This document shows positions 4,801 through 58,437 of a stretch of 59,231 nt of DNA, one piece after another. The stretch is taken from IMG/VR virus record IMGVR_UViG_3300040781_000275, positions 1 to 59,231 of that record; one strand, 5' to 3'. The translations under genes and the position numbers were made by a program. This DNA is from a virus. The first letter of the stretch is position 1; the number at the start of each line of letters is the position of its first letter. The notes beneath the pieces were generated by a model. That model was not told the DNA's origin, ran no database searches, and saw only the letters and a program-made list of their open reading frames with translations.

Positions 4801-4827
4801 TTTTAGAGATTTAATTTTGCCTATATT

Positions 4828-4858
4828 GGGGAGGGAGTATTCCCTCCCCTTTTTGTTT
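4828..4858 (+). terminator. Rho-independent terminator after the capsid gene
   Basis: A perfect 9-bp stem (GGGGAGGGA at 4828-4836 with TCCCTCCCC at 4841-4849), a 4-base loop and a T-run. It begins 27 bases after the capsid stop codon and is nearly the same sequence as the terminator behind the SSB gene at 54164-54191. Confidence 0.93.
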
Positions 4859-4867
4859 ATGAGATAG

Positions 4868-4873
4868 TATAAT
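4868..4873 (+). promoter_or_regulatory. TATAAT box, possible promoter after the capsid terminator
   Basis: A perfect TATAAT lies between the terminator and the gene starting at 4902. No good -35 element sits 16-18 bases upstream, since that stretch is the terminator itself. A promoter is expected here because transcription should restart, but the evidence is only the hexamer and its place. Confidence 0.35.
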
Positions 4874-4901
4874 TCATAGAAATAGTAACCAAGGAAAAGA
4901 A

Positions 4902-9668: not shown

Positions 9669-11492
9669 ATGAGTGGTGCCGCTTCGGTTAATATTAGAGA
9701 AGTAGATTTATCCACACGCGTAGCCTCTTTCGAGGGTGTTTTTGGTGGTCTTGTTATCCAAGCAAAGAAGGGAAGTTCTAGTGAACCAACTTTCGTTTCT
9801 AGTGATACACAATTCTTAAACTCATTAACACCTAATGGAAGAGTAGATGTTGGTTTTGATTTAGCCTATTTCTCAGGGCTTGCTTTCTTAGAGAGAGCAA
9901 ACAAGCTTTGGGTTCAGAGAGCTATTAATAGTGCTTACTATGCAGGGCTAGTCCTTGTTGAAGCAAGCTCAAGTTCAAACAACGCTGGAATTGCTACAGA
10001 TTCAGATATCGCAGACCCTACAGCTAGGGTTTTTGGTGCTGAGGAAGCCGTGTTTATACATAGTGCAAATGAGGGTGCTTGGGGTGATGATGTTGGTGTG
10101 AGAATCACAACGATTGATGAAGACCCTGATTTACTTGAAGAGAATTCTTTCTTAATTGAAGTTTTCTTAAGAAGCAATCAGGCTGTTCCAGTTGAGTCTT
10201 ATTTAGTCTCAAGAGTTATGGGGCAGAAGAATGCTGCTGGTAGAAATATGTTTATTGAAGATGTTCTACAGGCTTCAGCTTATATTAGGGGTATTAGTAA
10301 CCCACTCATTGATGAAGACGTTTTACCTAAAGGTGTTGTAAGTGCGGTTGCAGCTACGGCCACTGAACAGAGTGTTTTATTCACTGCTAATACCGCTGGT
10401 GTTATCGGTAATACGATTAGTTTAGTTTTTGATGGTGTAGCCACTATTGATGCAGTTGTTGATGCTTGGAACTTAGCTAACCCGTCCAATACAGTTTCAC
10501 ATGATGGAACAGGAACAGCCGTTTTGACAGCTGCTACAGTTAACTTAGCGGATGGTGTTGATGAGATTGGAAGCCAGATTCTATTTATGAATGACGGTGA
10601 TGACGGTCTTGCTGTTGGTGACGCTCAAATGATTAACGCTGCTGACAAGTTTTCAAATAAAGCACAAACGAATATTACGCTTTTAATGGACGGTGGTTAC
10701 ACTACTCCGGCTTATCAGATTGCACTTGATACAATCGCTCAATCTCGTCAGGATTGTGTGGCTATTTTAAGTACACCTTTTGCAGCTGAAGATAGCTCTG
10801 CTTACATTACAGATATCGTGGATTATAGAAAGAACACTTTGAACTTAAATAGTTCTTACTCAGCTCTTTATACTCCACACCTTAGAATTTCTGACAGATT
10901 CAATGATAGAGAGATTTTTGTTTCTCCTGATGGATATGTTGCTGGAAGTATTTCTTTTAGTTCTCAGAACTTTGAGATTTGGTTTCCACCTGCGGGATTC
11001 AAAAGAGGTATTCTTAACGTGCTCGACACAAAGAGAAGATACTCTGATGGTGAACTTGATGTTCTTTATAATGCTGGGATTAACCCAATTAGGTTTTTTC
11101 CTGGAAGAGGGATTGTTGTTTGGGGTCAGAAGACTCTACAAGCAAGAGCGTCAGCCCTTGATAGGCTAAACGTAAGACTTCTTCTAATCGTTATTGAACC
11201 AGCGATTAAAGAACTTCTTGAGAACTTCCTATTCGACCTAAATGAGGCGGCTGTAAGGTCAATCATTGAAGGACAGATTGAGGATTATCTTGAGACGATT
11301 CGCTCTAAAAGAGGAATCACAGATTATGATGTTGTTTGTGACGACACCAATAACAGCGCTGCTGATATTGATGCTAACAGACTTAACGTAGATATTTTTA
11401 TCAAACCTACTCGCTCTATTGAAGAGATACCTGTAAGAGTTGTCATTACGCCAACTGGTATCAGCTTTGGTGATGCGGCCGGTGCGATTTAA
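9669..11492 (+). CDS. Contractile tail sheath protein (gp18-like)
   Basis: 607 residues behind a GGAGG ribosome site and immediately before the tail tube gene, the usual sheath-tube order. The N-terminal 75 residues and the C-terminal 170 residues have the typical sheath pattern: an FPGRG-V-WG motif, then a helical region around LLENFLFDLNE, and a final beta strand pair IPVRVVITPTG. Sheath subunits slide along the tube to drive contraction. Residues 228-299 are an inserted beta-module that also occurs in three other virion proteins of this window. Confidence 0.93.
   Translation: MSGAASVNIREVDLSTRVASFEGVFGGLVIQAKKGSSSEPTFVSSDTQFLNSLTPNGRVDVGFDLAYFSGLAFLERANKLWVQRAINSAYYAGLVLVEASSSSNNAGIATDSDIADPTARVFGAEEAVFIHSANEGAWGDDVGVRITTIDEDPDLLEENSFLIEVFLRSNQAVPVESYLVSRVMGQKNAAGRNMFIEDVLQASAYIRGISNPLIDEDVLPKGVVSAVAATATEQSVLFTANTAGVIGNTISLVFDGVATIDAVVDAWNLANPSNTVSHDGTGTAVLTAATVNLADGVDEIGSQILFMNDGDDGLAVGDAQMINAADKFSNKAQTNITLLMDGGYTTPAYQIALDTIAQSRQDCVAILSTPFAAEDSSAYITDIVDYRKNTLNLNSSYSALYTPHLRISDRFNDREIFVSPDGYVAGSISFSSQNFEIWFPPAGFKRGILNVLDTKRRYSDGELDVLYNAGINPIRFFPGRGIVVWGQKTLQARASALDRLNVRLLLIVIEPAIKELLENFLFDLNEAAVRSIIEGQIEDYLETIRSKRGITDYDVVCDDTNNSAADIDANRLNVDIFIKPTRSIEEIPVRVVITPTGISFGDAAGAI
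10350..10566 (+). repeat. Shared beta-module, copy 1 (in sheath)
   Basis: About 72 residues with a GNTISLVFDG turn, a Val-Asp-Ala-Trp-Asn-Leu-Ala-Asn-Pro core, a TVSHDGTGT turn and a final LADG. The same pattern is found in the gp6-like protein, in the 1666-residue fibre and in the last fibre-region gene. It looks like an autonomous surface domain inserted in a permissive sheath loop. Confidence 0.8.
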
Positions 11493-11505: not shown

Positions 11506-12039
11506 ATGGCAAGTTTTACTATTGACCAACTTAGAGCACTTCCTGATTACGCACAAGTCACGAAGTGGGATATTACTTTTTTACAATTACCGGCGGTAGG
11601 GGCAGTAGGGTTCCCCGCCTCCGAGGACATCAACCTTCGATGCGAAACGGTTGAGACTCCTAAAGCTACGAACCAGAAGTTCCCTGTTGAATTGAGAGGA
11701 CATAGAACTTTCCATTCAGGAATCATGGATTATGGTAACGTAATGAACCTAACATTTACTGAAACAGTAGATAACTTTACATTCCTTTTTGTTAAGGCTT
11801 GGAGAGAGTTGTGCTGGGCAAGTAGAACAGGTTCAGCTTTTCCTAAGTCGGATTTAGAAGCAACAATTCTTCTAACTCTTTTAGACAACGAAGACAATGC
11901 AAGAGCGTCATGGAAAATTTATGGTGCTTTTTATGAGGCTGATGATTTTGGAACTTTAGATGGTTCAACTTCAGATGCTATCCGTCCTTCGCTTACTCTA
12001 AGCTACGACTTCTACGTTGATAACCCAATCGGCGGTTAA
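11506..12039 (+). CDS. Tail tube protein (gp19-like)
   Basis: 177 residues, with a GGAGG ribosome site, directly after the sheath gene. Length (T4 gp19 is 163 residues), beta-rich composition and the pattern around W-DITFLQLP and the LRCETVETP strand fit the T4-type tube subunit, which stacks as hexameric rings around the DNA channel. A strong terminator follows. The call is also supported by related tube-like proteins encoded downstream. Confidence 0.9.
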   Translation: MASFTIDQLRALPDYAQVTKWDITFLQLPAVGAVGFPASEDINLRCETVETPKATNQKFPVELRGHRTFHSGIMDYGNVMNLTFTETVDNFTFLFVKAWRELCWASRTGSAFPKSDLEATILLTLLDNEDNARASWKIYGAFYEADDFGTLDGSTSDAIRPSLTLSYDFYVDNPIGG

Positions 12040-12051
12040 TTAAGAATTTAG

Positions 12052-12083
12052 AGGGGAGCTTCAAAACTCCCCTTTCTTTTCTT
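12052..12083 (+). terminator. Rho-independent terminator after the tube gene
   Basis: AGGGGAG at 12052-12058 pairs perfectly with CTCCCCT at 12067-12073 across an 8-base loop, followed by TTCTTTTCTT. It begins 12 bases after the tube stop codon. Confidence 0.9.
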
Positions 12084-12095
12084 ATCCCTACATTC

Positions 12096-12101
12096 TATAA
12101 T
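12096..12101 (+). promoter_or_regulatory. TATAAT box, possible promoter of the tube-like gene
   Basis: A perfect TATAAT lies between the tube terminator and the next start at 12119, mirroring the arrangement after the capsid terminator. No clear -35 element is seen. Confidence 0.33.
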
Positions 12102-12118
12102 ATTTTCAGAGGTACAAT

Positions 12119-17494: not shown

Positions 17495-18294
17495 TGTTAA
17501 TTAGTTTAGCTGAACATTTAAAGCCTATTAGGGCGTTGACTAGACCTCATAAGGGTGTCGTAGTCGATAATGTAGACCCTAAGAAGTTGGGTAGAGTGAA
17601 AGTTCAGATAAAGGGCTTATTGGAAGTTGAAAAAGAGATGTTGCCGTGGTGTTCTACTTTAAATGACCCTAGCAATTTTGATGTGCCAGAAATAGGAGCA
17701 GAGCTTTATGTTATTTTTCCTTACGGAAGTATTTATTTTCCTTTTAGCCTTGGTTACTTTAATAGCGAAACTAATATTAACGCTAATCTTACTGGTGATG
17801 ATGACAATTATCCTAATACCTCGGGGTTCTCAAAACAAGGTTTCACGATAAAGTATAATAAGACAGCGCAAGAAGCTAATTTAATTCATCCAAGCGGCTC
17901 AACAGCTAAACTCAATAAAGAGGGAAGCTTTGAAATGAACTTAACGAAAGACTTGCTATTAACTATTGCTGGTAAGGTTGAGCAGACTGTCACAGGTGAT
18001 GTTATTTTTAATACAGATGGTAAATTGGAATACTCAGCTGTTGGTGATGTAAATGTTTCTAGTGATGGCAACGTGACTATAAAAGCAAATGGTCAAGCAA
18101 TATTTGAAGGTACAAGCACAACGATTGTTGGAAGTTCTGCTAGTGCTACTTTAGTTGAAGGGCAAACAGTTGCTTTAGCTGGTGGTGGAAAGCCTGTAGC
18201 AACATTAGGAAGCAAGTCTATTGGAACTGGTAATGCTGGTGCTCCGGTTATATCCACAGTTATTCAAGGTAGTACCAAAGTGAGTAGTGCATAA
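17494..18294 (+). CDS. Baseplate central spike (gp5/gpV-like), no lysozyme domain
   Basis: 266 residues. Residues 20-95 form the OB-fold typical of spike proteins (GVVVDNVDPKKLGRVKVQI, then EIGAELYVIFPYGS). Residues 125-230 are short alternating beta repeats expected of the triangular beta-helix that pierces the host envelope. Unlike T4 gp5 there is no lysozyme domain between them. The C-terminal part is rich in Gly, Ala and Ser. It overlaps the hub gene and the next gene by one base each, so the three should be translated together. Confidence 0.85.
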   Translation: MLISLAEHLKPIRALTRPHKGVVVDNVDPKKLGRVKVQIKGLLEVEKEMLPWCSTLNDPSNFDVPEIGAELYVIFPYGSIYFPFSLGYFNSETNINANLTGDDDNYPNTSGFSKQGFTIKYNKTAQEANLIHPSGSTAKLNKEGSFEMNLTKDLLLTIAGKVEQTVTGDVIFNTDGKLEYSAVGDVNVSSDGNVTIKANGQAIFEGTSTTIVGSSASATLVEGQTVALAGGGKPVATLGSKSIGTGNAGAPVISTVIQGSTKVSSA

Positions 18295-35199: not shown

Positions 35200-35574
35200 A
35201 TGGCCGGTGCCCAGCTTGTACAAGCACGAAAACAAAAGAACATGGAGTGTGCTTCAACTGTAGAAGTTGGTGACTTAGTGTATCTTCACCCGTCTACTCC
35301 AAATACGGTAGTGACAGCGGAAGATAATAATACTCCCAGTCCTATTATTGGAATCGTGATTTCAAAATACAGTGATAATAACGCTAAGGTCCTCGTTAGC
35401 GGGATAATTAAGATATCTACTGTTATTGACAACGGTAGGCTATTTGTGGGCTTAGGGGGCGGTATTAGCCCTTCTTGCCCTATGGTTAACTATTCTCAAG
35501 AGATTGGTAGAAGTTTTGGTGACGGAGTTATTGATTTCGCACCTGTTTATCGTAGAGTTAAGAGGTCAGCATGA
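35200..35574 (+). CDS. Small beta-barrel structural protein (DUF2190-like pattern)
   Basis: 124 residues, with V-EVGDLVYL near 24, then IIGIVISK, a KVLVSGI strand and LFVGLGGGISPSCP. Such strand order is found in DUF2190-type and related trimeric decoration or plug proteins. Its location in the fibre block rather than beside the capsid gene is unusual. The 3' end overlaps the next gene by four bases. Confidence 0.55.
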   Translation: MAGAQLVQARKQKNMECASTVEVGDLVYLHPSTPNTVVTAEDNNTPSPIIGIVISKYSDNNAKVLVSGIIKISTVIDNGRLFVGLGGGISPSCPMVNYSQEIGRSFGDGVIDFAPVYRRVKRSA

Positions 35575-38450: not shown

Positions 38451-40952
38451 ATGGCTTTGCAATTTAATTTCCCAGTAACGAATACAGTTAATAACATTGT
38501 AAATGTTGAAACACTTCGTTCAGAAATAAACGCCAATCCTAATATTTTAATTGGACTGAGTGACGTTGGTAGTATCTTTGATTCACAGAACGCGGAATTT
38601 ATTGTTGTAACATTTAAGACGGACCTATCAACACCAGAAGAAGGTGTTTTAGCTGGTATTATAGCTGCCCACAATGGTTTTGTAATAATTGAAGATGTAG
38701 ACTTAATTCGAGTTGCTAAAAACGATACAAAACAGCAAGCCAATATTATTAATGATAACGATAGAATTAAGGTTGAGGTTACAGGAACACTTTCTGACGG
38801 AACTGTGAAGGTTTCAGCTAACGATGCCTCAATGGGGCCTTTAATTGAAAAGATTGTACCCGCAGATAATAAGGTAGTCGTTTCTGAGACTAATGATGGT
38901 AATGCTGAACAACTAACTATCGGTATTAACCCATCAAATATTTTAACCAGTGAATTAGATAACGATGCAGAATTCTTAGATGAAAGCGCACACGATAACC
39001 TGGCTCAAGATAACCCTCACAATGTTACGAAAGCACAGGTTGGTTTAGGCAATGCTGATAATACCAGTGACGCAAATAAGCCTATTTCTAATGCTACCCA
39101 AACAGCTTTAAACGACATAGCCCAAGACGTTACAAATTTAGAAAATGCCGCAATTACCGACCACGGTGAATTAGGTGGTTTACAAGACGATGACCACTTA
39201 CAATATTTAAACGAAGGTAGACACGATGGGTTACCAAATGACAATCCACATACAGTTACACTAACTCAAGCTGTCCAAGCAGACGTAAATACAGATGTAA
39301 CAGCTAGTGAGCTAGAGACTTTAACGGACGGTTCAAATGCAAACGGTTTACACCAGCACCCAATAGGCGACATTATTGATTTTGCTCAGGGTGTAATTGA
39401 TAATGCCCCTGTTCAGGTATCGGATATCGCTGACTTTGAAACAACCACTCAACTCAATAATAGAGATGTGGCCAATAGAAATAGAGCGAACCATCAAGGT
39501 TCACAGCCAGCTAGTACCATTTCTGATTTTGCTTCTCAGGTTGTTGCTAATCAAACAGTTACTAACCTCGTTTTCAATAACACTACAAAAATTCTAAGTT
39601 ATACCAATGAACTTGGTAATACAGTTAATGTTGATTTAACTCAGTTCTTAGATGATACGAACTTAGCTAGAATTTTAAACGGCACTCTAAACGCTGCAAC
39701 AGGTATTGCAACTTTCACAAGAGATGACGGTAGCACATTCACAGTGGATTTTAGTAGTCTAAATGACCAAGCTGCCATTGGTGCGGCAATAGCAGCTCAT
39801 GAGGCAGCAAGTGACCCCCATCCACAATATACAACGGCTGCTGAAGCAACAGCTCTAGCCCCTGTTCAACCAGCTGATATTCAAGATTTTGAAACGACTA
39901 CACAATTAAATGCTAGAGATGTAGCTAATAGAAATAGGGCTAATCATCAGGGTTCACAGTTAGCTAGTACCATTTCAAACTTTAATACTGCCGCCTCCGC
40001 TGCTGCTCCTGTTCAGAATGTTAACGGTGAGACAGGAACAGTTAGCTTAGGTCAAAACAATTTAAACGACACAATAATTACAAGCCCTTTATTAGACCAA
40101 ATTCTTCAATACAATGGTGTGAATTGGGTTAACGTATTTCCAGTATCTAAAAATGAATTAATTATTACTCAACCCAATCACGGTTTTACTTTAACTAACG
40201 GAATACCAAAACCGGCTTATAGCAATACAAGTGGATTGGTTCAATTAGCTCAAGCAAACTCACTACAAACCTTAAGTGCTTATTACATTACTGAGATTAT
40301 TAATGCTAACCAAATTAGGATTCAGAGTGGTGGAAGTTTTATAAATGCTGTCAGTCACGGATTAAGTGTTGGTAGATATTACTTTACTTCTGAATTAGTT
40401 GCTGGTGAAATTTCAATAACAGAACCTTTATCAACTATTAACGATGTCGTTCTTTTTGCTGTAGATGCAGATAACCTTTTATTAATTGATAACAGGCCGG
40501 AAGATAAGAATAGTATTGAAAAGTTTTTAATTAAAGTTAGAAACACTAATACAACAACAAATATAAATACTGTTGCTCCTACTGCTATACCTGTTACTGG
40601 AACAGTTGAACAAAACGAAAACAATTTCTACACAGTTGTTGGAAACGGTATTCAAGTTCCGCAGACTAGAAGTTATAAGGTAAAAGCGAATATTCATGTT
40701 GGAAGTGTCTCTACTCGTTCAAGTGCCAGAATACGTTTTGCCATAAACGGCTCACCTCAAGGAGATATTGCTGCCACAGGTTACATTAGGAACTCAACAG
40801 GTCATAATGAGGCATCTTATATCATCAGTGATGAATTTATATTAAATGCTAACGATATTGTTACTGTTACAGCTGAAAGGGAGTCTACTGCTGGCGGTAC
40901 TGTTACACTGCAAGAAGTAGGTACATCATCAATCACAGTCGAGGCTAGATAA
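38451..40952 (+). CDS. Tail fibre protein with collar-type shaft repeats
   Basis: 833 residues. Residues 189-215 (PHNVTKAQVGLGNADNTSDA) and 238-275 (DDDHLQYLNEGRHDG, then NPHTVT) are classical collar-fibre shaft motifs. Two copies of a 33-residue unit (FETTTQLN to ASTIS) lie near 328-360 and 479-511. The C-terminal 130 residues resemble a C1q-like tip (TRSYKVKANIHVG, then ARIRFAING). It directly follows the previous gene and overlaps no other. It is likely a side fibre distinct from the large fibre at 23078. Confidence 0.82.
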   Translation: MALQFNFPVTNTVNNIVNVETLRSEINANPNILIGLSDVGSIFDSQNAEFIVVTFKTDLSTPEEGVLAGIIAAHNGFVIIEDVDLIRVAKNDTKQQANIINDNDRIKVEVTGTLSDGTVKVSANDASMGPLIEKIVPADNKVVVSETNDGNAEQLTIGINPSNILTSELDNDAEFLDESAHDNLAQDNPHNVTKAQVGLGNADNTSDANKPISNATQTALNDIAQDVTNLENAAITDHGELGGLQDDDHLQYLNEGRHDGLPNDNPHTVTLTQAVQADVNTDVTASELETLTDGSNANGLHQHPIGDIIDFAQGVIDNAPVQVSDIADFETTTQLNNRDVANRNRANHQGSQPASTISDFASQVVANQTVTNLVFNNTTKILSYTNELGNTVNVDLTQFLDDTNLARILNGTLNAATGIATFTRDDGSTFTVDFSSLNDQAAIGAAIAAHEAASDPHPQYTTAAEATALAPVQPADIQDFETTTQLNARDVANRNRANHQGSQLASTISNFNTAASAAAPVQNVNGETGTVSLGQNNLNDTIITSPLLDQILQYNGVNWVNVFPVSKNELIITQPNHGFTLTNGIPKPAYSNTSGLVQLAQANSLQTLSAYYITEIINANQIRIQSGGSFINAVSHGLSVGRYYFTSELVAGEISITEPLSTINDVVLFAVDADNLLLIDNRPEDKNSIEKFLIKVRNTNTTTNINTVAPTAIPVTGTVEQNENNFYTVVGNGIQVPQTRSYKVKANIHVGSVSTRSSARIRFAINGSPQGDIAATGYIRNSTGHNEASYIISDEFILNANDIVTVTAERESTAGGTVTLQEVGTSSITVEAR
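39432..39530 (+). repeat. Fibre shaft repeat, unit 1
   Basis: 99 bases coding a 33-residue unit with the RDVANRNRANHQGSQ core. The second unit at 39885-39983 is the same length and in phase, and differs at a few residues and many third positions. Confidence 0.85.
39885..39983 (+). repeat. Fibre shaft repeat, unit 2
   Basis: The partner of the unit at 39432-39530, 453 bases downstream. The RDVANRNRANHQGSQ core is unchanged, pointing to conserved shaft structure rather than recent duplication. Confidence 0.85.
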
Positions 40953-43647: not shown

Positions 43648-43667
43648 ACTCAGGATGAGTTAAAAAT

Positions 43668-43725
43668 CCTGACTGAATCCATATTTGCAAAACAGGATGT
43701 GTGTGGGGTTCAGTCAGGTTTTTTT
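43668..43725 (+). terminator. Bidirectional terminator between converging genes
   Basis: A 13-pair stem, 43668-43680 with 43706-43718 (one G-T pair), with a 25-base loop. On the + strand seven T follow; on the - strand a run of five T (AAAAA at 43663-43667 of the + strand) follows. It therefore can end both the fibre operon and the small - strand gene, whose stop codon lies at its edge. Confidence 0.88.
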
Positions 43726-44113
43726 ATCCCTCTATTTGAACGTCCCACTTTGTTACTCTTTCCTTTAAATCTTCAATTGAATGTTTAGGCTTATAAGAAA
43801 ACTTTTTTGAATATCGCTTTTCAAAGGAGCTCATTAAACTAACTGCAAATTGCTCAACTTCTCCTAAGACTAAATCAAACTTATCTTGTCCATGTAAACT
43901 CTTATCGTCCAACTCTCCAATCTCTTTCATTATTGTTAAAATAACCTGATAGACCTCGATAGAACCGTGCATGTGACTTTGCGTTAGGTTTTTCTGAAAC
44001 TCCGCTTTATTAAATTTCTTTTTTATCTTTGTGTTATTTCCAATTGGATAGTGGCAACTTGTTAACCACTGTGCAAATTCATCACTATTTTTATCAATAC
44101 CTTTATATTTCAT
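43724..44113 (-). CDS. Small - strand protein of unknown function
   Basis: 129 residues, mainly helical and Lys-rich, with a good ribosome site (AAAGGGGAG). It converges with the fibre operon and diverges from the regulator-like gene at 44397. No DNA-binding motif or membrane segment is clear. Its isolated position beside a structured control region suggests that it is regulated separately from the structural and replication blocks. Confidence 0.7.
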   Translation of the reverse strand: MKYKGIDKNSDEFAQWLTSCHYPIGNNTKIKKKFNKAEFQKNLTQSHMHGSIEVYQVILTIMKEIGELDDKSLHGQDKFDLVLGEVEQFAVSLMSSFEKRYSKKFSYKPKHSIEDLKERVTKWDVQIEG

Positions 44114-44130
44114 GGACTCCCCTTTGAGGC

Positions 44131-44136
44131 ATTATA
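44131..44136 (-). promoter_or_regulatory. TATAAT box of the - strand gene
   Basis: Read on the - strand this is a perfect TATAAT, 18 bases ahead of the ATG at 44113. A standard -35 hexamer is not obvious. A 10-bp element (44161-44170) lies about 25 bases further upstream. Confidence 0.45.
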
Positions 44137-44160
44137 TTTAATTGAAAACCGCCAATAATC

Positions 44161-44368
44161 ATAGGCAGTCATTAATTTTTATAGATTGGGGCTTATATCG
44201 AGCATATTTCGCCCAAATATAGCCCATATACTACTTTTAGTGCTTATTTGTGACTTTATAGCCCTGAACACTAAATAGGGCTTAAATGGCCCAAATGGGC
44301 TTAATTCTATTATTAAATAAAAAATGTTTAAAAGTATCAGGATTATCGTTGAATAATGGACTGCCTAT
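44161..44368. repeat. Perfect 10-bp inverted repeat near both divergent promoters
   Basis: ATAGGCAGTC at 44161-44170 and its exact reverse complement GACTGCCTAT at 44359-44368, 188 bases apart. AATAAT stands next to the core in both arms. One arm lies in the spacer of the + strand promoter, the other just upstream of the - strand TATAAT box. This is the layout of an operator pair for one regulator. Confidence 0.65.
44189..44304. repeat. Cluster of GGGCTTA and GCCC repeats in non-coding DNA
   Basis: GGGCTTA occurs at 44189, GGGCTTAA at 44278 and 44297, and GCCC, its complement core, at 44211, 44222, 44261 and 44289. Two local hairpins can form: AGCCCT/AGGGCT (44260-44282) and GCCCAAATGGGC (44289-44300). 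No reading frame explains the 283-base gap. A control region, or an origin, is possible. Confidence 0.6.
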
Positions 44369-44376
44369 ATTATTCT
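44349..44376 (+). promoter_or_regulatory. Sigma70-like promoter of the regulator-like gene
   Basis: TTGAAT at 44349-44354 and TATTCT at 44371-44376 with a 16-base spacer, 20 bases before the ATG at 44397. The spacer contains the right arm of the inverted repeat, so a protein bound there would block the promoter. Confidence 0.5.
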
Positions 44377-44396
44377 AATACCAACGGGGAAGGGCA

Positions 44397-45041
44397 ATGT
44401 TAAAGATTGGAAAAGTGTATTTATACGAGAATAAGAATTATATTTATGTTCACACTAAAAAGAAAGTCGGTGGCCGGAACATTTATTCAGTTTCTAAAGT
44501 CGATATCAATGGGGAGTTAAAGAAGCCCATTGATGTTAGATTTAAGCGTGGTAAATTTAAGCTAATAGAAGATGTTTCTATTAGAATCTTAGTTAGAATC
44601 CCTCAGAAAAATAGGCAAAAACTAAAGTGGTTAAAAGTTGTTAACGATGCTCAAAGAAAAATGGTCGCACTAAAGATATCTGGTTGTCGTGAAACTAAAA
44701 GGGAACTAAGGAAAGAGATTGGTAAATTAGCAGTAGCTTCCATATATTTTCAAAACAGTGAATCAGGCGATTGTTTTAATCTTAGAGATTTTGCCAAAGA
44801 ATTAAACTTTAATACTTACACAACTTTATATCGATGGGCTGAAAACTACCTTCGCTCTATCTATACGGAAGACAGGTATAAGAACGCTATTAAGTCTGCT
44901 GCTGATAGAACCATTTATCAGGCGTATAACAATAAGATGAAATATTGGTCTGGTTTATATGGTTTCAATAAGAACATTAATAAGATGCTGGATAGAGACT
45001 TAAAAGCTTATATGAAAGAAATGAGAGAGCGGGCTATTTAA
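44397..45041 (+). CDS. Putative DNA-binding protein in the switch region
   Basis: 214 residues, strongly basic. Residues 1-60 look beta-rich (a small barrel with GKVYLYENKNYIYV), and residues 122-150 (NLRDFAKELNFNTYTTLYRW) have the spacing of a helix-turn-helix. It is the only + strand gene in the region facing the replication block, has its own promoter, and converges with the next - strand gene with an 8-base overlap. A regulator binding the inverted repeats upstream is an attractive but unproven idea. The ribosome site is GGGAAGGG. Confidence 0.6.
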   Translation: MLKIGKVYLYENKNYIYVHTKKKVGGRNIYSVSKVDINGELKKPIDVRFKRGKFKLIEDVSIRILVRIPQKNRQKLKWLKVVNDAQRKMVALKISGCRETKRELRKEIGKLAVASIYFQNSESGDCFNLRDFAKELNFNTYTTLYRWAENYLRSIYTEDRYKNAIKSAADRTIYQAYNNKMKYWSGLYGFNKNINKMLDRDLKAYMKEMRERAI

Positions 45042-45348
45042 GGTAGTCGTTAAAAACTCTTTCGTTAAAGTATTGATAAACCCAAAGATAAGAATCAAAC
45101 TCAGGCATCTCAACTTTAAGAACTAAATTTTCAGACTTGATATATGGCAAAATTGCTTGATGAGTAATTGTATCCATTACAACAACATTATATTCACTGA
45201 AATAAATAGTTACATCACTTTCAATATTAAAAATATTTTTGAAAGTATCTAAGGCATCTCCTTTAAGTTGTTTGATGCCTGAGACAGAATCTTTAACACA
45301 ATCACTTAGAGTTGATAATCTTTCCTTAAGGTCTGATTTTGATGCCAT
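45034..45348 (-). CDS. Small - strand protein, unknown
   Basis: 104 residues with a GGAG ribosome site seven bases from the ATG. Helical in the first 40 residues, then beta-rich and aromatic (SYLWVYQYFNERVF). The 3' end overlaps the converging regulator-like gene by 8 bases; the 5' end overlaps the upstream ligase-like gene by 43 bases, so it is the last gene of the replication operon. Confidence 0.7.
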   Translation of the reverse strand: MASKSDLKERLSTLSDCVKDSVSGIKQLKGDALDTFKNIFNIESDVTIYFSEYNVVVMDTITHQAILPYIKSENLVLKVEMPEFDSYLWVYQYFNERVFNDYLK

Positions 45349-46181
45349 ACTTTAACTCCAAATTTATAATAGATACCCTTTAAGAATAGTACAAAGTCTA
45401 GGTTCTCTTCAACTACTTTTTTACATCTGGCCGGAAGCTTCTTAAGTTTTTCTTTTCCAGTTCCATCTAAAATTTCTAGCGGTGAAATTGCTCCTAATGC
45501 TTTTAACTCTTTTTCATTTAAGTTAGGGAAATTACAAATATCCCAAAAGCTCTCAGCACTAAAGGAAGTTTGCTTAAGGTACTCCTGAACCATTACATCT
45601 ATGTGCCAAAGTATATTACCGTTCTCTTTATAAAAGTTATTCCAGTGGGCTAATCGACCTTCCGTGTTATGGTCACTAATAGCAGAGAACATAACAAAAT
45701 ACTCATATGGGTTATCTACCTTGGTCTGAGCTTGTGAGTAAACGTAACCATCTAAATAAACTTTTAGAAGTCTTTGGTCTAATTCAGGGTAGGCGTATTT
45801 AAACAGCTTAAATAAGAACCCTCTTGAAGTAGCAGAACAATAAACATTAGGGCATTTAATAACACCGTCTACAGTTATTAGGTCACCTTTACAAGTTGTG
45901 CAATTAGTAGGGAGTTCTAACTCTCCTACAGGCTGACTCAAAACTTCTTCAATTTCTGGAATTAATTGCTCATCAACTTTTACTCTGAGTTTTGTTCCTT
46001 TCATTAGGAATCTTTTATTTTCAATATCTCTAAAAATCATAGCGTTGATATTGTGTTTCTTAAGTTTGGTTGTAGTTTTTAAATGAACCAACATAAAAAC
46101 ATCGCCTCTTTGACCGGTTCGATAATCAACTTTCTTAACCGTGACGTTTTCTTTAAATGTTTCAATTTTAGACGTTTCCAT
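45306..46181 (-). CDS. Zinc-finger protein resembling the C-terminal half of NAD-dependent DNA ligase
   Basis: 291 residues. I take the ATG at 46181 because AAGGAG precedes it; an ATG at 46211 lacks a site. Residues 10-85 look like an OB-fold, then four Cys (CTTC, 12 residues, CPNVYC) form a zinc finger like that of bacterial LigA (CxxC...CPNxxC), followed by helical sequence that could hold helix-hairpin-helix units. The nucleotidyl-transfer domain with its KxDG lysine is absent, so it cannot be a whole ligase. It may be a DNA-binding subunit or one half of a split ligase. Confidence 0.6.
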   Translation of the reverse strand: METSKIETFKENVTVKKVDYRTGQRGDVFMLVHLKTTTKLKKHNINAMIFRDIENKRFLMKGTKLRVKVDEQLIPEIEEVLSQPVGELELPTNCTTCKGDLITVDGVIKCPNVYCSATSRGFLFKLFKYAYPELDQRLLKVYLDGYVYSQAQTKVDNPYEYFVMFSAISDHNTEGRLAHWNNFYKENGNILWHIDVMVQEYLKQTSFSAESFWDICNFPNLNEKELKALGAISPLEILDGTGKEKLKKLPARCKKVVEENLDFVLFLKGIYYKFGVKVWHQNQTLRKDYQL

Positions 46182-46461
46182 TAATTTCTCCTTCGTCATC
46201 GTAAGCTTCACCTACAACAACTACTTCTTTAGCTGTGATTCCCTTTGGCCCTCTGAACATTTCAAACTGAATTATTTGTCCAGGGATTAACTTTCTAACA
46301 CCTTCCATATTAACTTCTCTGTGATGTACGAAAGCGTCTTCTCCCATACCTGAAGACTTATAAACATCTCCACTTAATATTTCATCAATTTTAGAGAACC
46401 CAAATTTCTTTTCTGCATCCCATCGAATAACTCTACCCTTAGCCTTACCAACAAACTTCAT
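46168..46461 (-). CDS. Cold-shock domain protein
   Basis: 97 residues. KKFGFSKI at 18-25 (RNP1) and DAFVHHR at 42-48 (RNP2) are the nucleic-acid-binding strands of the cold-shock fold, with GKAKGRVIRW at the start and PGQIIQFE plus KGITAKEV at the end as in CspA-type proteins. The loop between RNP1 and RNP2 is about ten residues longer than in CspA. Such proteins bind single-stranded RNA or DNA and melt structure. It overlaps the downstream ligase-like gene by 14 bases and has a good AAAGGA site. Confidence 0.85.
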   Translation of the reverse strand: MKFVGKAKGRVIRWDAEKKFGFSKIDEILSGDVYKSSGMGEDAFVHHREVNMEGVRKLIPGQIIQFEMFRGPKGITAKEVVVVGEAYDDEGEINGNV

Positions 46462-55767: not shown

Positions 55768-58437
55768 CTATATTTTAATTTTCTTTCCGTACCATTCCCA
55801 ATCATAGTGGTCGCCATCAACCTTTAATTCTATTTCTAAAGGTGTTCCTTTGTTTAGAAAAGTTTTCATCTCTTCCATAGCAATTGCGTCAATATAAGGA
55901 CGTTCTTCTAGTGGTGATTCACCTAAAATACCATCATGGATATAAAGTAAAATTCTTGACTTCATACCTTCTTTTTTAAACCTTCTATTTAATCTAATAA
56001 TTGCTGGCTCAAAAATATCATGTGCTCCACCTTGAACAGGTGCGTTCATTGCCTGACGAGATATTTCTTCTTTTAACATCTTAGTGCTCCAAAGACCTTC
56101 AGAAAATGAACTATTAAACCAATCGATTGCGTGGTGAAACCTTCTTTTTCTAACAGATAATAAATTCACATATCCTTCCGTTAGAGCCTTTTCAACTTGC
56201 CCATCTCTCCAAGACTTCATTACACTGTAGATATTAAAATAAGCGTCTACCATTTCCTCTGCTTCATCTATATCAATTTTGAAATCTTTAGCAAATGTAA
56301 TGGCAGTTTTACCGTAGTTAAGACCAAAACCAATTGCTTTCGCATTAGTTCTCTGGTCAACAAAGTTAATGTCAGCTCCGTGAGTTTCTAAGTCTTTTCT
56401 AATCTCATTAATAACATCAGTATCTTTTATTAATGATTCCTTACCATTAGCCACTAACATATGTTCATAGCTAACCCATTTAGGTATTGTTTGGAGTTGG
56501 CTTCCTAAGTCAGCCGCATTAATACAATGCAAATCCATTCCATCCTGAATACGCTGTGTAAGTACAGGGTCATTACTTAAAGAAGCAACTACACATTGTT
56601 CAATCTGACTGTAATCATATTCCCATAATCGCCAATCCTTATTAGTTGGAACAATGGCGTTTCTCATATTAGGTAAGCCCTTAATTGGTCTTGGCCAGAC
56701 TTGCAGAGAGGGTCTATTACATGACCACCTAGAAGTCCTTGGAGTCCAGATATTATAGTTAGCGTGTATTCTGTGACGCTTATCTAAATATTGCAACATC
56801 CCACCTTTTCCGTCTTTACCATCAACGTAGGTTCCTCTAATTTTTGCTAGTTTTTTTGAATTGATAATCAATTGTGGGAACTCTTTCCACTTTTTATATT
56901 TAGTGAACTTCTCTAGCTCTTTAGCAGCTGTAGAATATCCTGATTTGTTTTCCTTAATTTGTAATTTCTTAAATGGATAACCATTTTCAATCATGTGGTT
57001 ATTAATTTGTTTTGGGCTATTAGGATTAAACTCTTCATCACCTGTTATATCAGCTAATTTAGTTAACAGCTTGTTTTGCGTTCTCTGAATAATCCTACTA
57101 GATTTCTTAAATAGTCTTTTATCCGCTTTAACTCCAATATATTCATTTTTAACTAAGTCTCTCAGAGCTGGCATCTTCCTTTTAAACATATGTTTAAATT
57201 GCCCCTCTTTCTTTAGTTCTGTTAGCTGTTTTGCGAATAACTGAAAATCTCCCCAAGTATCTATCCCTAAATATTTCTCAAGAAGTGTGGGTGGTACAAA
57301 CTGATAACTTTTCTTTTTCTTTTCATCCTTATTAATATATGGCCATAGAAGTGTGTCGTATGCGCCATAGTTAATGCCCCTTCTTTCCATAGCAACGTTC
57401 AAACTATGTCCTAAATTCTCGTCAATTAGAGAGTCAGCTATAAGTGTATCAAACCAAAAGTTTCTATATTTAATTCCATTAGCAATTGCAAACTTACTAT
57501 CAAACTTACCATTGTGAAGAATTAACTTTAAATGCTTAAAGTTGTTAACAGTTTTAATTGCTTCTAGTGTTTTATTTCTATTGAACTTTAGAAAGGTATT
57601 AATTTCTTTAGCTCTTTGAACATCTCTCCTATCCCACTTTTTTGTGTGCTCTCTTTTATAAGGCTCTAAGTATAGAATATCTGCCACACCATCTTTTCCA
57701 CAGTAACCAGTGTTTATAATCTTGTCTCTCCAAAAATCAAAACCCGTAGTCTCAAAATCTGTTGCAGCATAATCAACTTCTCTATACTTTTCTACAAAGT
57801 CTTTTAATCCCTGCTTTGATAAAATTACATTTAATTTAGGCTCTTTACTTCTATCAATTACACCTTCTTCTACAAACTTTTTAGCTTTCTTAAAATCGCT
57901 AATCATATCAGGGTTATATACCCACTTATAAAGTGAACCGTGAAGTGACCAAGTTGGAATTATTTTACATTTGAAACTTCTTTCAATGGTTTTACCATTA
58001 ACTTCTTTTTCATAATCTAATTCAAAATCTTTGTGTGTGAAGTGACCTCTAAACTCTCTAACAGAGGTAAAGTCAGAGACAGCTTGAAAAGCCCATTTAC
58101 CCATTGGGATAATAACATCTGGTTTGTGGGTTATTATTTCCTGAAATAAGTATTTTCTACATTCTTCTAAATGCTTCTTTTTAATGTCACTGTTTTCTCT
58201 CGGTTTACACTTTAGAGCATAGGTATAATAAACTTCCTTACGATTGATTCCAGCCTTATCCAAGAGGTAGGAGAACTTCATTTGCCCTTCTCCTGTTAGA
58301 GGTGTGTTTTGGGCATCATCGGTTCTACTCGGTGTTTCCTGAATGAACATATATTTAGTTCTTTTAGGCTTTGAACCACGTCCAAAGATACCAGAATTTC
58401 TACAAGCCTTAGATAAGGCACAATCGTTACAAGCCAT
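55768..58437 (-). CDS. DNA polymerase I with fused family-4 uracil-DNA glycosylase domain
   Basis: 889 residues in three parts. Residues 1-190 are a family-4 UDG-like domain with Cys3/Cys6 and Cys77/Cys93 (16 apart, as in iron-sulfur UDGs); its first active-site motif reads QETPS and its last lacks the HPS triplet. Residues 205-400 are a 3'-5' exonuclease with DFE (Asp227, Glu229), HNGKFD (Asp313) and YxxxD (Tyr389, Asp393). The polymerase has YDYSQIE (Asp608), RTNAKAIGFGLNYG (696-709) and IHDG (Asp835), where family A normally has HDE. The same fusion is known in phage SPO1. It is the main replicative polymerase. Confidence 0.93.
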   Translation of the reverse strand: MACNDCALSKACRNSGIFGRGSKPKRTKYMFIQETPSRTDDAQNTPLTGEGQMKFSYLLDKAGINRKEVYYTYALKCKPRENSDIKKKHLEECRKYLFQEIITHKPDVIIPMGKWAFQAVSDFTSVREFRGHFTHKDFELDYEKEVNGKTIERSFKCKIIPTWSLHGSLYKWVYNPDMISDFKKAKKFVEEGVIDRSKEPKLNVILSKQGLKDFVEKYREVDYAATDFETTGFDFWRDKIINTGYCGKDGVADILYLEPYKREHTKKWDRRDVQRAKEINTFLKFNRNKTLEAIKTVNNFKHLKLILHNGKFDSKFAIANGIKYRNFWFDTLIADSLIDENLGHSLNVAMERRGINYGAYDTLLWPYINKDEKKKKSYQFVPPTLLEKYLGIDTWGDFQLFAKQLTELKKEGQFKHMFKRKMPALRDLVKNEYIGVKADKRLFKKSSRIIQRTQNKLLTKLADITGDEEFNPNSPKQINNHMIENGYPFKKLQIKENKSGYSTAAKELEKFTKYKKWKEFPQLIINSKKLAKIRGTYVDGKDGKGGMLQYLDKRHRIHANYNIWTPRTSRWSCNRPSLQVWPRPIKGLPNMRNAIVPTNKDWRLWEYDYSQIEQCVVASLSNDPVLTQRIQDGMDLHCINAADLGSQLQTIPKWVSYEHMLVANGKESLIKDTDVINEIRKDLETHGADINFVDQRTNAKAIGFGLNYGKTAITFAKDFKIDIDEAEEMVDAYFNIYSVMKSWRDGQVEKALTEGYVNLLSVRKRRFHHAIDWFNSSFSEGLWSTKMLKEEISRQAMNAPVQGGAHDIFEPAIIRLNRRFKKEGMKSRILLYIHDGILGESPLEERPYIDAIAMEEMKTFLNKGTPLEIELKVDGDHYDWEWYGKKIKI

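Follow-up and report, generated by a model that had tools for sequence, protein, structure and literature searches.

The locus described here lies where the structural and the replication genes of an uncultured contractile-tailed phage meet. The phage is represented by a virus record of 59,231 bases, which has been analysed over its whole length and to which we refer as "the window". The structural module, with genes for a head maturation protease, tail sheath, baseplate and fibres, is located on the + strand; the replication and recombination module is located on the - strand and includes a family A DNA polymerase with a UDG-like domain, a UvrD-like helicase and a UvsX-like recombinase, as well as an SbcCD-like pair, a RuvC-like resolvase and a cold-shock protein. 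Neither a terminase nor a major capsid gene has been recognised among the scanned window proteins and the end of the record falls within a gene cluster; the record is, therefore, probably a fragment. The polymerase (positions 55768-58437) carries an N-terminal domain of the uracil-DNA-glycosylase superfamily, and among its best relatives over the full length are SPO1-like phage polymerases, which are about 25% identical to it.

The two modules converge, and a small divergent island is found between their ends, consisting of one gene for a 129-aa protein and one for a 214-aa protein, with the intergenic gap between the two (Table 1). The next longest non-coding stretch in the window measures 116 bp. 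The first-pass annotation had described a 283-base gap between two divergent small genes, with coordinates that check out, but had placed it between the structural and the replication halves of the genome; the halves converge, and the gap belongs to the two-gene island. The hairpin that precedes the island in Table 1 is the terminator of the structural operon, and possibly acts in both directions. Further along (45306-46211), a 301-aa protein shows weak similarity to NAD-dependent DNA ligase (PHROG 3869, LigA), over the middle part of the latter, and is far too short for a ligase; it adjoins the cold-shock and RuvC-like genes also in one of the two related phages presented below (L002) and, by position, in the other (L020).

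Table 1. Features of the divergent island and its surroundings (window coordinates).
Feature	Position	Strand	Remark
Hairpin CCTGACTGAA...TTCAGTCAGG-TTTTTTT	43648..43735		strong fold, z -4.9 on +, -2.5 on -
129-aa orphan protein	43724..44113	-	no family match
Divergent intergenic control region	44114..44396		283 bp, longest non-coding stretch of the window
TATAAT -10-like box, putative promoter of the 129-aa gene	44132..44137	-	no recognisable -35
Operator-like element O1, AATAAT-CATAGGCAGTC-ATTAAT	44154..44176	+	putative function
Core ATAGGCAGTC, arm 1	44161..44170	+	exact match
O1-O2 spacer with three GGGCTTA and four GCCC words	44177..44351		175 bases, folding not above background
Putative promoter of the 214-aa gene, TTGAAT-16-TATTCT	44349..44376	+	consensus match only
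Operator-like element O2, AATAAT-ATAGGCAGTCC-ATTATT, inverted relative to O1	44352..44374	-	putative function
Core ATAGGCAGTC, arm 2	44359..44368	-	exact match
214-aa protein, candidate DNA-binding regulator	44397..45041	+	homologs in L002 and L020

Promoter-like sequences and paired elements

Promoter-like sequences precede both genes of the island. The putative promoter of the 214-aa gene consists of the boxes TTGAAT (44349-44354) and TATTCT (44371-44376), 16 nt apart, with TATATT at 44366-44371 as an alternative -10 box; one arm of an inverted repeat falls within its spacer, as had been described. On the opposite strand, a TATAAT box is found upstream of the 129-aa gene, whose transcription would start near 44125 (-); this box had been placed beside the other arm of the repeat, and it does exist (44137-44132), but "beside" is a loose description of two elements that are 23 nt apart. 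In a promoter scan of the area, promoter-like sites are no commoner than in shuffled sequences, and the two putative promoters are not listed by the scan. Bare TATAAT boxes, with no recognisable -35 box, are also located before structural genes at 4801-4901 and 12040-12118; these boxes and the one of the 129-aa gene are situated 17-28 nt ahead of the respective gene, which suggests a common, perhaps late, promoter class shared by the structural genes and the 129-aa gene. The absence of a -35 box seems to be a habit of this phage; since the structural genes also do without it, its absence before the 129-aa gene is no proof that this promoter is activated.

The 10-mer ATAGGCAGTC has exactly two exact copies in the 59 kb, arranged as a perfect inverted repeat near the ends of the gap; the repeat reported at 44161 and 44359 is thus confirmed. 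With no third exact copy, the 10-mer is unique to the gap within the window, and the observation withstands the first of the refutations that had been proposed for it, a 10-mer that is common in the genome. The AATAAT flank that had been noted at both arms is also present, and each arm is the core of a 23-bp element of the form AATAAT-N11-ATTAWT; we refer to the two elements as O1 and O2. This pattern, which has been defined after it was seen, occurs in the window only at O1 and O2, and is absent from three other phage records; a DNA pattern scan of all viral contigs with the full element returned no match. The two elements face each other at a distance of 198 bp, centre to centre. In both of them the AT-rich half-sites are 11 nt apart, with the core shifted by one base between O1 and O2, and this equal spacing despite the shifted core fits the footprint of a dimer better than a chance 10-mer. 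Relative to the genes, O1 is located at about -30 to -52 of the putative TATAAT promoter of the 129-aa gene, and O2 overlies the spacer of the other putative promoter together with most of its -10 region, with the ribosome-binding site of the 214-aa gene following shortly after. Elsewhere in the window, inside a gene, an O2-like sequence AATAAT-N12-ATTATT with an internal AGTCC (35326-35349) has a 12-nt spacer and is probably due to chance.

How unusual the pair is depends on the way it is scored. A perfect inverted repeat of at least 10 bp is found in 21 of 200 dinucleotide shuffles of the gap, and, as about 10% of the shuffles have one, the 10-bp repeat alone is weak evidence. The gapped inverted match, which extends over about 20 positions, is reached by 1 of 2000 shuffles under strict scoring, by 0/600 to 38/600 under composition-weighted log-odds scoring, depending on the parameters, and by 88 of 1000 under lenient mismatch scoring; when the window is tiled into 831 segments, a single segment reaches the score, namely the one over the gap. 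A shared 6-mer dyad, with any equal spacing from 4 to 24, occurs in 17/500 shuffles. With p about 0.0005-0.09 according to the scoring, the pair is probably real, not certain, and its statistical weight is modest.

The 214-aa family and its junction in other phages

The 214-aa protein gives nothing significant in Pfam, PHROGs, NCBIfam, PADLOC or, by sequence, the PDB, and is assigned by these searches to no known DNA-binding family; it is without a match in 50,697 phage records, and no member of its family has been found in genome contigs. The same set of databases yields nothing significant for the 129-aa protein, the model of which is all-helical and of low confidence, and megablast and tblastn searches against phage records return no matches for the region or for the SbcC, 214-aa and 129-aa proteins. 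The model of the 214-aa protein has been built from a three-sequence alignment (mean pLDDT 65) and consists of a confident five-strand SH3-like β-barrel, at about residues 7-57, followed by a helical remainder of low confidence. The block that is most conserved across the three phages, NLRDFAKELNFNTYTTLYRW, has the look of a helix-turn-helix, judging from its sequence pattern and from the low-confidence part of the model. In Foldseek searches with the 214-aa protein, resemblances are limited to the N-terminal barrel, with no E-value at or below 0.001, and they comprise the RNA-polymerase-binding barrels of Mfd, UvrD/PcrA and CarD along with many generic SH3/Tudor-like domains. A CarD/TRCF RNA polymerase-interacting domain has been considered for the barrel and rejected, with PF02559 giving no match up to E 10.

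Relatives of the window in the collections are distant only, and both have been found through the junction genes: L002, a contig of 104,850 bases whose RuvC is 53% identical to that of the window, and L020, a contig of 66,425 bases. Both keep a homolog of the 214-aa protein, at about 32% identity, between the end of the structural genes and the converging replication operon; the family is thus encoded on the + strand (in the orientation of the window) at the structural/replication junction in all three phages. The 129-aa gene is absent from L002 and L020, the O1/O2 sequence is carried by no relative found, and the comparison of the window element with the promoter regions of L002 and L020 gives low scores that are alike in both orientations, with nothing convincing among them.

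The junction of L002 contains two unrelated reverse genes and an inverted dyad pair of its own, AATAG-N17-CTATT, at promoter regions: one dyad (within 17836-17869 or 18243-18274, the two stretches that hold the pair) is in the divergent gap and the other precedes the operon leading to the 214-aa homolog. The alignment score of this pair is reached by 0 of 2000 shuffles, and any such shared dyad occurs in 22/2000; a third exact match is located inside a gene, which indicates that such dyads do arise by chance. The parallel with L002 supports a junction that is locally regulated by paired sites with a fast turnover of sequence, as one case and not as proof. L020 lacks both a reverse gene and such sites, and the gap ahead of its 119-aa gene is short.

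Several further observations concern these relatives. The sequences ATAAT-N11-ATTAT in the window and ATAAT-N21-ATTAT in L002 may be related by one helical turn, a relation noticed post hoc and given no weight here. In L020, a 17-nt inverted repeat, ATTGCCACC...GGTGGCAAT (11094-11135, 82% complementary), encloses the ribosome-binding site and the start of the 214-aa homolog, the translation of which may therefore be controlled by a hairpin; just after this homolog, a short lysine/alanine-rich ORF (11865-11957), beginning with MAKALKKVAKKASKK, resembles bacterial histone H1-like proteins. Besides L002 and L020, a third phage (L022:13841-14509, G003:C1:25760-26122) shares the genes that end the structural operon; it encodes two recombinases, a tyrosine recombinase close to this junction and a serine recombinase at a different place.

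Readings of the two sites

On balance, we consider it somewhat probable that the gap is a divergent promoter/operator region, in which O1 and O2 are bound by one protein, most likely a dimer of the 214-aa protein that regulates its own gene. The sites, their uniqueness in the window, their positions relative to promoter-like boxes and the conservation of the 214-aa family at this junction are observed; that a protein binds there, which protein it is, in which direction it regulates and whether the sites cooperate are inferred. In this model, the dimer would bind both 23-bp elements; at O2, by lying over the -10/spacer region, it would repress its own promoter (negative autoregulation), and from O1, located where a -35 box would be, it would either assist or block the RNA polymerase that transcribes the 129-aa gene. 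This reading is favoured by the restriction of the 10-mer and of the 23-bp pattern to these two places in the window, by the equal spacing and the gapped match, by the positions of the elements, with O2 over promoter-like boxes of the 214-aa gene and O1 just upstream of those of the 129-aa gene, by the helix-turn-helix-like block that is conserved in three phages, together with the helical C-terminus of the model, and by the inverted dyad pair at the equivalent junction of L002. It is weakened by the shuffles, 10% of which match the 10-bp repeat, with p rising to 0.09 under lenient scoring; by the absence of the O1/O2 sequence from the relatives, and by L020 in particular, where the 214-aa gene is kept but a divergent gene and such sites are lacking; by the promoter scan, which does not list the two promoters; by the third dyad match in L002; and by the lack of a match between the 214-aa protein and known DNA-binding families.

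The sites may instead be bound by a different regulator of the host or the phage, for example the 129-aa protein or one that is encoded beyond the fragment. We regard this as unlikely, yet deserving of serious thought: the sites serve both divergent genes alike, L002 and L020 have 214-aa homologs yet not the operator sequence, and other regulators may be missing from a record that is probably a fragment. The occurrence of the element nowhere else in the 59 kb speaks against it, favouring a local regulator that is encoded alongside its sites.

It is rather improbable that no shared binder exists, i.e. that the repeat and its AT-rich flanks coincide by chance in an AT-rich promoter region of 283 bp. 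The frequencies of the 10-bp repeat and of the 6-mer dyad in the shuffles are compatible with such a coincidence, as is the lack of conservation outside this record; a gapped match of about 20 positions is, however, rare under most scorings, it is found at both promoter-like boxes, and an analogous pair is present in L002.

A third alternative is an invertible segment, where a recombinase would flip the 175 bp between O1 and O2 and swap the sequence upstream of both promoters, with the 214-aa gene losing its TTGAAT -35 box, which is situated inward of the O2 core. Inverted sites with an identical asymmetric 10-bp core and dyad flanks do resemble recombination sites, but the window, which may be a fragment, and the records of L002 and L020 contain neither a tyrosine (PF00589) nor a serine (PF00239) recombinase, a one-base shift of the core relative to its flanks would be poorly tolerated by such sites, and a single orientation has been seen; we consider the inversion very improbable.

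The first-pass annotation had left the choice between a regulatory switch and an origin. The three GGGCTTA and four GCCC words between the arms are present as described, but the folding that had been attributed to them is at background, with z -1.3 (+) and -1.7 (-) for the central 175 bases versus a window baseline of -0.3 +/- 1.2. The RNA fold reaches z -2.2 to -3.4 once both arms are included, and the value of about -3.3 for the arm-containing stretch is explained by the arms pairing at long range. Rfam gives only sub-threshold noise on the region, and no iteron array has been found. The cumulative GC skew, proposed earlier as a check for an origin, peaks not in the gap but at 45046, where the 214-aa gene and the replication operon meet with their 3' ends; around the junction, G is in excess on the coding strand of the genes, except for one gene (38451-40952) in which the excess is near zero, and the change at 45046 is therefore a coding-strand bias. 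A cumulative skew maximum is, moreover, not the usual signature of an origin. That the gap, as the largest non-coding stretch with its several short GC hairpins, is a replication origin between the genome halves or a structured non-coding RNA is scarcely credible, given a fold signal that depends on the long-range pairing of the arms and a skew change that tracks the coding strand. What stands of the earlier proposal, as a plausible reading, is the divergent control region, with related operator-like sites at promoter-like sequences; the origin and the specially folded centre are unsupported.

Relation to described control regions

The nearest described logic to the proposed divergent promoter/operator region is that of protein p4 of phage phi29, in the sense of a functional analogy and not of membership. 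Protein p4 binds pseudo-inverted repeats (CTTTTT-15-AAAATG) between promoters A2c/A2b and the late promoter A3; the promoters are regulated in opposite senses, the sites overlap promoter elements, and the activated promoter has a poor -35 box (PMC3100819). Like the p4 sites, O1 and O2 are pseudo-inverted repeats with AT-rich half-sites and a fixed spacer, and overlap promoter elements; unlike them, they have the half-site AATAAT and an 11-nt spacer, and there are two of them, whereas phi29 has four. Protein p4 has a fold of its own, to which no relation of the 214-aa protein has been detected, and no p6-like partner has been identified. A switch of the phi29 p4 type itself has been rejected: half-site and spacer differ from CTTTTT-15-AAAATG, and the search of the 50,697 phage records linked the 214-aa protein to none of them.

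Switch regions of the lambdoid cI/cro type combine divergent genes, paired operators and autoregulation. The window shares with them the divergent genes and the paired operator-like sites, as well as autoregulation in the proposed model; it differs in having no cI/Cro-family match and no integrase in the 59 kb, and in belonging to a phage that has a contractile tail and a large replication module. A role in lysogeny is not indicated. The plasmid pLS20 has overlapping divergent promoters, operators, a locally encoded regulator and DNA looping (PMC4207663); the window resembles it in its divergent promoters, operator-like sites and locally encoded candidate regulator, and differs from it in that its promoters do not overlap and its two single sites are about 198 bp apart.

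In its general design, the region is most likely ordinary, a local on/off control region that adds a new example to a familiar type. A bolder reading, which we hold to be decidedly unlikely, is that the 214-aa protein is the first of a new family of phage regulators, combining an SH3-like barrel that possibly touches RNA polymerase with a helix-turn-helix; positioned where operons meet, such a protein would repress itself through O2 and activate a promoter without a -35 box through O1, and its operators and neighbours would be swiftly replaced among related phages.

Should the divergent promoter/operator reading be true, a regulator and the sites that it targets would be named for a group of uncultured phages that has hardly any annotated relatives, and a short, testable DNA element would be gained. 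Of wider interest is the 214-aa family itself, which three distantly related phages retain at the same junction between operons: its surroundings and its presumed operators change, while its position at the junction stays.
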